A stretch of 64,000 bases of DNA from Paragemmobacter straminiformis (GTDB lineage Bacteria > Pseudomonadota > Alphaproteobacteria > Rhodobacterales > Rhodobacteraceae), in NCBI RefSeq assembly GCF_014243445.1, contig NZ_JACLQD010000001.1, positions 1,054,001-1,118,000 of the forward strand, written 5' to 3'. Below the pieces are notes generated by a model. The model saw only the letters and a program-made list of their open reading frames with translations, did not search any database and had not been told where the DNA came from. Position 1 is the first letter of the stretch. Each line of letters begins with the position of its first letter. The position numbers were made by a program, and so were the translations under genes. This document shows positions 11,433-29,136 of the stretch, piece by piece.

Positions 11433-12323
11433 TCAGCCCCGGCTGACCGTCGCCCAAAGCACACCCCCCAGCGCCACGGGAAAGCCGATCAGGTGATAAA
11501 AGGCGATCTTCTCGCCAAGAAACACCACAGCCAGCCCCGCGCCAAAGACCGGCATCAGATGCAGGAAGAACACCGACCGCGAAGGCCCGATCCGCGCCAC
11601 CGCCGCGTTGTAACTCAGCAAGGCGACGACCGAGGCGAAAACCCCCGTATAGGCCACCGCACCCAGCCCCGCCGCCGTCAGCGGCACATGCAGGCCCCGC
11701 GACACCTCCCACAGGTGAAAGGGCAGCATGAACCCCGCCCCGCCCAGCGCGATGAAAAAGGTCAGCCCCACCGCCGACAACCCCTTGGGCCTGAACTTCA
11801 GCAGCACCGAATACAGGCCCCAGACCACCAGCGCCGCCAGAATCCACGCATCCCCCACATTGAAATGCAGGTCCAGCAGCCGCGCCGGTTCACCCCGCGC
11901 GATGATAAAGGCGACGCCGCAGAAACTGACCCCGATCCCCGCCGCCTGCCGCAGGCCCAGCCGCTCGCGCAGCACGATCCAGGCGATGATGACCACAAAG
12001 ACGGGCATGGTGGCCGACACGAGCAGCGCGTTGATCGCTTCGGTCGAATGCAGCCCGATATAGGTCATCGACTGGAACATCCCCGCCGACAGCACCGCCA
12101 TCGCCGCGACCAGCGGCAGATGCGCCCGCACCTCGGCCCAGTCGGCCCGCAGCCGCCGCCATTCAAAGGGCAGCAGGATCACCGCCGCCAGCGCCCAGCG
12201 CCAGAAGGTCAGGCCAAAGGGCGGCACATCGGCACGTATCGCGCGCCCCAGCACCCAGTTGCCCGCCCAACACAGCGAAGCAAGGGCCGCAAGCCCCGCA
12301 GCAATGGCAAAATTCTTGTTCAT
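11433..12323 (-). CDS. EamA family (DMT superfamily) transporter
   Basis: A 296-residue inner membrane protein with about ten hydrophobic segments in two EamA repeats. The first repeat contains WAGNWVLGRAIRADVPPFGL, typical of the family; the second begins near WILAALVVWGLYSVLL. Such proteins export metabolites or amino acids; the substrate cannot be told. ATG at 12323 is preferred over an in-frame TTG two codons upstream. Upstream lies an inverted-repeat pair and the 83-bp array behind groL, so expression from groESL read-through would have to pass the groL terminator. Confidence 0.88.
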   Translation of the reverse strand: MNKNFAIAAGLAALASLCWAGNWVLGRAIRADVPPFGLTFWRWALAAVILLPFEWRRLRADWAEVRAHLPLVAAMAVLSAGMFQSMTYIGLHSTEAINALLVSATMPVFVVIIAWIVLRERLGLRQAAGIGVSFCGVAFIIARGEPARLLDLHFNVGDAWILAALVVWGLYSVLLKFRPKGLSAVGLTFFIALGGAGFMLPFHLWEVSRGLHVPLTAAGLGAVAYTGVFASVVALLSYNAAVARIGPSRSVFFLHLMPVFGAGLAVVFLGEKIAFYHLIGFPVALGGVLWATVSRG

Positions 12324-12369
12324 GGCCAAAGGCTAAGCCGCCCCGACCCAAAGGGCAATCCGCCAACCC

Positions 12370-12416
12370 CGCGATTTCTGACGCAGAAATCGCGCCGGAA
12401 TTTGGCGCAAATTCCG
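12370..12416. repeat. Pair of perfect hairpins with 3-nt loops between eamA and the array
   Basis: Hairpin one: CGCGATTTCTG, loop ACG, CAGAAATCGCG (12370-12394, 11 bp). Hairpin two: CGGAATTTG, loop GCG, CAAATTCCG (12396-12416, 9 bp). They have the same design as the two hairpins in each 83-bp unit that starts 20 bp away and look like a diverged relative. Confidence 0.8.
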
Positions 12417-12435
12417 CGCGCCCGACACTTGCCCC

Positions 12436-12914
12436 CGATTTTTGTGTCAAAAATCGTCGCGATATCTGCGTCAGATTTCGCCGCGCGGCCCAAAAGAAAC
12501 GCGCCCGACCCTCGCCTCCGATTTTTGCGCCAAAAATCGTCGCGAAATCTGCATCAGATTTCGCCGCCCGGCCCAAAAGAAACGCGCCCGACCCTCGCCC
12601 ACGATTTTTGCGTCAAAATTCGTCGCGATATCTGCGTCAGATTTCGCCGCCCGGCCCAAAAGAAACGCGCCCGACCCTCGCCTCCGATTTTTGCGTCAAA
12701 ATTCGTCGCGATATCTGCGTCAGATTTCGCCGCCCGGCCCAAAAGAAACGCGCCCGACCCTCGCCTCCGATTTTTGCGCCAAAGATCGTCGCGATATCTG
12801 CGTCAGATTTCGCCGCCCGGCCCAAAAGAAACGCGCCCGACCCTCGCCCCCGATTTTTGCGTCAAAAATCGTCGCGAAATCTGCGTCAGATTTCGCCGCC
12901 CGGCCCAAAAGAAA
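12436..12914. repeat. Tandem array of six 83-bp units, each with two 3-nt-loop hairpins
   Basis: Units begin at 12436, 12519, 12602, 12685, 12768 and 12851, an exact 83-bp period; the last unit is cut after about 64 bp where the groL terminator begins. Units 3 and 4 are identical as read; others differ by a few substitutions. Each unit holds hairpin A (CGATTTTTG, 3-nt loop, CAAAAATCG) and hairpin B (GA[A/T]ATCTG, CGT, CAGATTTC), then a GC-rich spacer with GGCCCAAAAGAAACGCGCCC. Because 83 is not a multiple of 3, the frame shifts at every unit, so it is not a protein repeat. It lies between groL and eamA. Confidence 0.97.
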
Positions 12915-12940
12915 AAGGGGCGCAGCTTTCGCCACGCCCC
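12911..12940 (-). terminator. groESL operon terminator
   Basis: On the minus strand GGGGCGTGGC, tetraloop GAAA, GCTGCGCCCC, then TTTTTC. It forms ten base pairs, two of them G-U, closed by a GNRA loop. It lies 27 nt after the groL stop and directly abuts the 83-bp array. Confidence 0.88.
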
Positions 12941-12966
12941 CCGTTTCTGCCGGATGGCAGGGATGA

Positions 12967-14646
<1,680 letters not shown>

Positions 14647-14682: not shown

Positions 14683-14970
14683 TCAGGCGATGATGCCGAG
14701 GATGTCGCTTTCTTTCATGATCAGCAGTTCCTGACCGTCGAGCGTCACTTCGGTGCCCGACCATTTGCCGAACAGGATGCGGTCGCCAGCTTTCACCGAC
14801 GGTGCGATCAGCTCGCCCGAATCCTTGCGCGCGCCTGCACCGACAGCGACGATCTCGCCCTCGGCGGGCTTTTCTTTCGCGGTGTCGGGGATGATCAGAC
14901 CGCCCTTGGTCTTGTCTTCGCCTTGAATGCGCTTGACGAGCACGCGGTCATGCAGCGGTTTGAATGCCAT
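14683..14970 (-). CDS. groS: Co-chaperonin GroES
   Basis: A 95-residue heptameric lid of the GroEL chamber. [20 protein letters not shown] and the mobile-loop region [15 protein letters not shown] are diagnostic; the C-terminal [20 protein letters not shown] is also standard. ATG at 14970 has AGGGAG upstream; an in-frame ATG at 15012 lies inside the CIRCE element and is rejected. It is the first gene of the groESL operon. Confidence 0.98.
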
Positions 14971-15005
14971 CTGAGAACACTCCCTAGGTTCCAGGTTGAA
15001 TACGA

Positions 15006-15032
15006 TTAGCACTCATATTGGACGAGTGCTAA
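15006..15032. promoter_or_regulatory. CIRCE operator (HrcA binding site) of groESL
   Basis: TTAGCACTC, 9-nt spacer ATATTGGAC, GAGTGCTAA: a perfect match to the CIRCE inverted repeat. It sits just downstream of the predicted transcription start and about 36 nt before the groS start, where the HrcA repressor would block transcription or act in the leader. Confidence 0.97.
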
Positions 15033-16215: not shown

Positions 16216-16265
16216 CGATCTTTCGCGGAAAGATCGCCCGACGGATTCTTCGCAGAAAAATCCGT
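16216..16265. repeat. Hairpin pair downstream of the TraB/GumN gene
   Basis: CGATCTTTC, loop GCG, GAAAGATCG (16216-16236, perfect 9 bp) followed at 16241-16265 by ACGGATT...AATCCGT with an inner TTCT/AGAA helix. A weaker GTCTTTCCGCGAAAC inverted repeat precedes them. It has the same two-hairpin layout as the elements at 12370, 19911 and 29088. Confidence 0.65.
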
Positions 16266-19910: not shown

Positions 19911-19955
19911 GCAAATTTCTTCGAAGAAATTTGCAAATCCGTCCGAACGGATTTG
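19911..19955. repeat. Two-hairpin element C, copy 1, directly after the ribF stop
   Basis: Hairpin one is a perfect 24-nt palindrome, arm GCAAATTTCTTC (19911-19934). Hairpin two is CAAATCCGT, loop CCGA, ACGGATTTG (19934-19955). The same 24-nt palindrome recurs at 29109-29132 next to a near-identical second hairpin. It lies 3 nt after a stop codon and 43 bp before the next gene; there is no clean U tract. Confidence 0.9.
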
Positions 19956-28754: not shown

Positions 28755-29136
28755 GTCAACCCTTCCGCTGTTTTCGCCCCGTCCCGCTGACCCGCAGGCA
28801 AAGGCTTCCCAAGGCGCACGCTGTTGCGCGCGTCGGTGTGAATTTGCGGCGTCATTAGCAGAGGTGCAGGAACCCCGCAACCGTCAAGGAAGCGTGAACG
28901 TGACTGATTTGGTCATGATTTTCTGGGGGTTTCGCCAAAGCGCCCGCCCCTGCGACTCTTTGCGCGGGGCGGGGGCGGCAAAGCGGGGTGCAAACCGCCA
29001 GAATCAGCGCGCTTTCCAGACCGTGCAACACCGTGCCCGACCCTGCGGCCCGCCCCTGCCGCCGCCGCCCCTGCCGGACAGCCGCGCCAAATCCGTCCGA
29101 ACGGATCTGCAAATTTCTTCGAAGAAATTTGCCCGC
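28755..29136. other. Upstream region of the F1-ATPase operon, no gene seen
   Basis: A 382-bp spacer between atpH and the methyltransferase gene. It should contain the F1 operon promoter; a TTGACG lies on the minus strand near 28885-28890 but no well-spaced -10 stands out. A GC-rich inverted repeat (GCGCCCGCCCC with GGGGCGGGGGC, about 28938-28976) and element C copy 2 occupy the distal half. Confidence 0.55.
29088..29132. repeat. Two-hairpin element C, copy 2, directly after the methyltransferase stop
   Basis: In the direction of the minus-strand gene the stop is followed after 4 nt by the same 24-nt palindrome as at 19911 (arm GCAAATTTCTTC, 29109-29132), then a CAGATCCGT/ACGGATTTG hairpin with one mismatch (29088-29109). 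Order relative to the upstream gene is the same as in copy 1. Confidence 0.9.

Follow-up and report, generated by a model that had tools for sequence, protein, structure and literature searches.

A tandem array behind groL as a local expansion of one half of a dispersed, REP-like four-palindrome element

The region considered here lies between groL and an eamA-type transporter gene in the window, by which we mean the whole 64-kb stretch of DNA that was analysed. The genes groL, groS and eamA are all on the minus strand, and directly behind the groESL terminator, where the preliminary description had placed it, stands an array of six 83-bp units (12417-12914; 94% matches, 6.0 copies, no indels) that TRF finds as the single long tandem array of the window. 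The features of the locus are as follows.

11433-12329, minus strand: eamA-type transporter gene, the downstream neighbour.
12370-12394: H1, left outer hairpin, GCGATTTCTG-ACG-CAGAAATCGC and one more pair, apex TGACGCA; its position is constant in all dispersed copies.
12396-12416: H2, left inner hairpin, CGGAATTTG-GCG-CAAATTCCG, apex TGGCGCA; the left half scores 72.9 bits on the minus strand.
12417-12914: tandem array of six 83-bp units, each made of 19 bp of spacer, a 46 bp right half (H3 and H4) and 18 bp of flank.
12436-12481, plus strand: right half of unit 1 (H3 and H4), located, like the five below, by hairpin scan and covariance model.
12519-12564, plus strand: right half of unit 2.
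12602-12647, plus strand: right half of unit 3.
12685-12730, plus strand: right half of unit 4.
12768-12813, plus strand: right half of unit 5.
12851-12896, plus strand: right half of unit 6, with perfect stems.
12942-12915, minus strand: groESL intrinsic terminator with a 12-bp stem and a T-rich tail, between groL and the array; it is kept in the genus and is not part of the element.
12967-14613, minus strand: groL (Cpn60), the upstream neighbour, whose stop codon is 70 nt from the last hairpin of the array.
14683-15012, minus strand: groS (Cpn10), a neighbouring gene.

The region of the groL terminator (12907-12966, minus strand) also resembles BjrC68 of Rfam, with 22.1 bits where the gathering score is 39.

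The hairpin pairs of the array start at 12436, 12519, 12602, 12685, 12768 and 12851. Each unit contains a stem of 9 bp and a stem of 10 bp, both with a 3-nt loop, and the centres of the two loops are 24 nt apart, in agreement with the earlier reading of six units with two inverted repeats each. The second stem carries one mismatch (GATATC/GATTTC) in units 1, 3, 4 and 5. In the TRF phase the units differ pairwise at 2-8 bases; in the phase that starts at 12436, the adjacent units 12602-12684 and 12685-12767 are identical, as had been noticed from the letters. The preliminary description had further proposed that the spacer is conserved as strongly as the hairpins, that the period breaks the reading frame and that the whole unit has been copied, and all of this stands: 5 of 39 columns vary in the spacer and 6 of 44 in the hairpins (about equal conservation), 83 is not divisible by 3, and the copied piece is larger than the right half, with 19 bp of the spacer between the halves and 18 bp of flank, neither of which belongs to the element proper.

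To the left of the array, H1 and H2 are two further triloop hairpins with the opposite apex polarity. The unit of the array does not stand alone; it makes up half of a symmetric element of four palindromes that is dispersed in the genome. In the printed copies this element follows the plan H1, 2 nt, H2, spacer, H3, 2 nt, H4, with the apices in the order TGACGCA, TGACGCA, spacer, TGCGTCA, TGCGTCA. Simple copies are about 108-112 bp long, with stems of 9-10 bp around TG-ACG-CA or TG-CGT-CA; the stem vocabulary is limited to some 60 words and the apex TG-CGT-CA is nearly constant. Compared with its own genome by BLAST, the array has 34 matches. A covariance model built from the 46-nt double hairpin and searched across the same genome gives 31 element loci with about 74 half-modules. 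At 29 of the 31 loci there is at least one minus half and at least one plus half, the minus half always first and the two mostly 11-65 bp apart, and the same order is found in all 50 of the 50 two-half copies of the named relatives. Halves that seem to stand alone proved uninformative on which of the two is the important one, since most of them turn out to be partnered, with a spacing that differs slightly. According to a home-made codon-usage gene caller, which reproduces the stop codons of groL and eamA, the copies are intergenic in this genome and in the named relatives. Another dispersed palindrome, with hairpin repeats of the type TAGGATGGGCaatcCTGCCCATCC, is seen within the element spacer at L014 and L021, and repeats of this type lie within the element or replace it in the groL downstream flanks L128 and L132.

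Searched for in related genomes as well as on its own chromosome, the unit proves to be dispersed. All 19 genomes searched of the genus (the Tabrizicola/"Rhodobacter" group, including Tabrizicola sp. TH137 and Rhodobacter amnigenus HSP-20) contain matches to the element. In an exact pattern scan of GTDB genomes, almost all of the matches listed are from Rhodobacteraceae, and the few scattered records of other phyla among them look like chance. Weaker hairpin pairs are present in 30 other genera (297 genomes of the family examined), and the plasmid and phage collections searched hold no DNA match to the element.

How did one half come to stand six times behind groL? In four relatives (G002, G016, G013 and G014) the element at the 3' end of groL has a single right half, and in the other relatives with a readable groL 3' flank no such element is seen. 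Because these four carry only one right half there, the groL array is a local tandem duplication (sixfold, 83 bp) of the right half with spacer and flank, and of the lineages sampled this is the only one with the sixfold state. A single right half in the relatives would also suit an artefact of assembly, but the units are not all alike, the array lies inside a 1.24-Mb contig and arrays of other periods are found at further loci of the genome, so that we hardly entertain this explanation. Four more loci of this genome are expanded, with periods of 110 bp (six right halves), 102 bp (four left halves), 155 bp (two left halves) and 62 bp (two right halves), and G002, G016 and G013 have the locus of the 102-bp array in unexpanded form. 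In two cases (L105 in this genome, and in G002 the L115 site) the duplicated piece reaches into the neighbouring gene and includes its tail. The duplication therefore ignores the borders of the element, as is easier to reconcile with slippage or template switching at a palindrome than with transposition.

The mechanism that we infer from these end products across species would run as follows. The palindromes would form hairpins in single-stranded DNA during replication, and the polymerase would slip or switch template at these hairpins, by which one half may expand into an array; the same events may also keep the stems perfectly paired. The element would persist at gene ends where it is tolerated and where it perhaps helps to set transcript ends from both sides. 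The groL array is probably a slippage by-product of DNA copying and, given that the terminator of groESL itself already precedes it, most likely one without added function.

A REP-like expansion had been one of several options in the preliminary description, and this option is supported: what has been amplified in tandem is half of a symmetric palindromic element with dispersed copies. As with REPs and BIMEs (Nunvar et al. 2010, PMC2817692), we see extragenic dispersed palindromes, inverted pairs, doublets and arrays, and complementary changes that keep the palindrome. The differences lie in the number of hairpins (two per half and four per element, whereas a REP has one), in the arrays, which repeat one half in the same orientation while REP/BIME arrays alternate, and in copy number, about 31 loci against the more than 100 copies given there as usual. 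The GT(A/G)G head of REPs is missing as well, this constant tetranucleotide being absent from the 31 printed copies of this genome. A RAYT is likewise not found: in the 19 genomes of the genus (this one and 18 others) no match to Y1_Tnp (PF01797) exceeds the Pfam cut-off, while five control genomes are positive, and the single sub-threshold match is in Tabrizicola sp. TH137 (L278, G007:C22:135398-135694; 21.3 bits against a cut-off of 23). Because these two defining features were looked for and are lacking, we do not file the element under RAYT-linked REPs; it is a REP/BIME-like family without their two hallmarks. The array unit has only sub-threshold matches in Rfam at E<=1, none at the gathering score, and we find no description of the element in the literature on Rhodobacter REPs, Rhodobacteraceae intergenic repeats, small dispersed repeats or the apex sequences, a search that covered few subscription papers, so that an earlier description may have been missed. 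The initial impression that there is no named element like it has held so far, and the family looks undescribed.

Being short, non-coding, intergenic, palindromic and multi-copy, the element can also be likened to MITEs and to other small palindromic repeats with dispersed copies, such as Bru-RS1/2 of Brucella (cited in PMC2267715). It could be a mobile REPIN- or MITE-like element spread by a putative enzyme that would recognise the TGACGCA hairpin apex, for which gene ends would be merely tolerated sites. The near-identity of dispersed copies, an apex that stays constant while the stems change, and the presence or absence of copies at orthologous junctions are all in keeping with mobility, as are the 8 gene ends (distance -11) at which the apex TGACGCA supplies the TGA stop codon, and a clean empty site, the L115 site in G016, where CTAG serves two convergent genes as a shared stop. 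At this single site (the others are too diverged), however, there is no target-site duplication, and unlike for MITEs no parent transposase is found in the Y1 family, the one searched. Many copies are moreover shared at orthologous places, which makes them old. We regard mobility of this kind as rather unlikely.

We now consider where the copies are placed relative to genes. The 31 loci of this genome fall into 14 convergent, 14 tandem and 3 divergent gene pairs. In the named relatives, 75 elements are distributed 30/37/8 over convergent, tandem and divergent pairs, compared with 84/390/109 background pairs, giving an about fourfold convergent enrichment (odds ratio 4.0, p 8e-7, which shared ancestry makes optimistic). 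A stop codon is within 15 nt of 56 of their 67 non-divergent copies, at a median distance of 3. For tandem pairs the count is 26 of 37, against 6.4 expected under uniform placement, a value that 0 of 200,000 simulations reached, with the kinship of the species again making p-values optimistic. In other genera, 22 of 26 of the weaker hairpin pairs are likewise no more than 15 nt away from a stop codon. The groL copy, far from the stop codon and behind a terminator, is atypical.

Such placement is what makes one think of a selected bidirectional RNA 3'-end element, in which hairpins after the stop codon would block 3'-5' exonucleases or mark Rho-trimmed ends on both convergent transcripts, and the array would strengthen the barrier that separates groESL from eamA. 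The abutment of stop codons, the convergent enrichment and the mirror symmetry speak for it, and so do stems that change while pairing stays. Canonical terminators are few at these ends (3 of 63 element-bearing gene ends against 29 of 314 elsewhere, in a simple scan), and the same convergent junction can be filled by other hairpins, since at the L108 site unrelated ones are found in three other species (G012, G011 and G007). What counts against it are stems of modest predicted RNA energy (medians of -8.6 and -12.3 kcal/mol), the absence of a U-tract on either side of the hairpins in the printed copies, the position of the groL array behind a functional-looking terminator, and a lack of wobble tolerance that is unlike Bacillus cereus terminators (PMC5381666). 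We doubt that the element is selected in just this manner; that it has some useful 3'-end role, setting transcript ends from both sides, we put forward as a tentative but serious suggestion. As a side observation, the hairpins at the L108 junction in those three genomes (L145, L146 and L148) are three in number and of a different kind, CCAAGATTTTT-cggg-AAAAATCTTGG being one of them.

Gene-end hairpins, convergent enrichment and repeated short motifs are shared with bidirectional intrinsic terminators, including paired uptake-sequence terminators (Kingsford et al. 2007, PMC1852404). The element differs from these in its missing U-tracts, in stem interiors that are A+T-rich and in a hairpin that starts at the stop codon or a few nt from it. 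The only T-runs past H4 (minus strand) begin about 4 nt on, within the arm of the next hairpin. Identity with intrinsic terminators is rejected because there is no U-tract and the stems are modest.

The pairing of the stems bears on whether RNA or DNA is the relevant level. Modules were picked by apex and outer bases only and the inner pairs then counted; earlier covariation counts are set aside, because modules there had been extracted partly by pairing, which overstated it. Among 1710 inner-pair cells, 1668 are Watson-Crick, 7 are G-U and 8 are A-C, and on the sense strand of tandem copies there are 0 G-U against 3 A-C, all of these being few events. Across six genomes the stem at the L091 site differs in sequence between species and its pairing is kept. 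Pairing that is kept while stems change argues that the hairpin form would matter, or that it may be regenerated. In Bacillus cereus terminators, by comparison, G-U makes up 4% of ancestral pairs and 89.5% of the resolved intermediates of AU-GC switches (PMC5381666). Used as a test of RNA-level selection, G-U tolerance gives an outcome opposite to the RNA expectation, resting on few events. The near-absence of G-U points to a palindrome favoured at the DNA level over one selected as RNA; the alternatives are that both strands matter and that the palindrome is maintained at the DNA level. Such upkeep could be due to a binder, to recent copying, or to template-switch correction of imperfect palindromes, a mutational process described in E. 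coli (PMC7202029). The structured RNA domain on read-through transcripts that had been suggested for the array is possible as a structure, and its selection at the RNA level is disfavoured by the near-absent G-U.

A DNA-level binding or topology element (gyrase, a nucleoid protein or a cruciform) could sit where the positive supercoils of convergent genes meet, and the array would then be a putative multi-site landing pad. The perfect palindromes without wobble, the convergent bias, and the strict 24-nt apex spacing with fixed polarity would suit such a function, and E. coli BIMEs are reported to be protein-binding (PMC2817692). With about 60 stem words, however, the stems apart from the apex are too variable for one duplex binder, and topology does not need the abutment of stop codons seen in tandem pairs; we consider a role of this type decidedly unlikely. 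A broader conjecture, unlikely in our judgement, is that perfect triloop palindromes on stop codons (with the TGA of the apex serving in some cases as the stop) are a Rhodobacteraceae-wide, RAYT-independent system, bound as hairpins by a putative protein and insulating gene ends from both sides, with TGACGCA as the apex in the Tabrizicola group and different apices in other genera.

Taking all of this together, the explanation that we favour, with fair though far from full confidence, is the local duplication of a REP-like element; gene ends tolerate this element and may profit from it, and the array is a by-product. If the gene-end role is true, the element would be a gene-end signal for a large family of environmental bacteria, one whose gene ends carry a canonical terminator in only about 1 in 10 cases by a simple scan. 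It would moreover be REP-like with no RAYT detectable, a system in which the spread of palindromes and their role at stop codons become separable for study. If that role is false, there is still a clean bacterial case of palindrome-linked tandem expansion, for which relatives preserve the unexpanded state.

Two other palindromic features of the window may be recorded. A second palindrome family, GCAAATTTCTTCGAAGAAATTTGC, is found at 19911-19934 and 29109-29132, in both cases 3-4 nt past a stop codon; its core occurs at 11 places in this genome with up to 2 mismatches, against 0 for the reversed control. At 16216-16265, 52 nt past a gene of the TraB/gumN family, there is a triloop hairpin pair (CGATCTTTC-GCG-GAAAGATCG and its neighbour).
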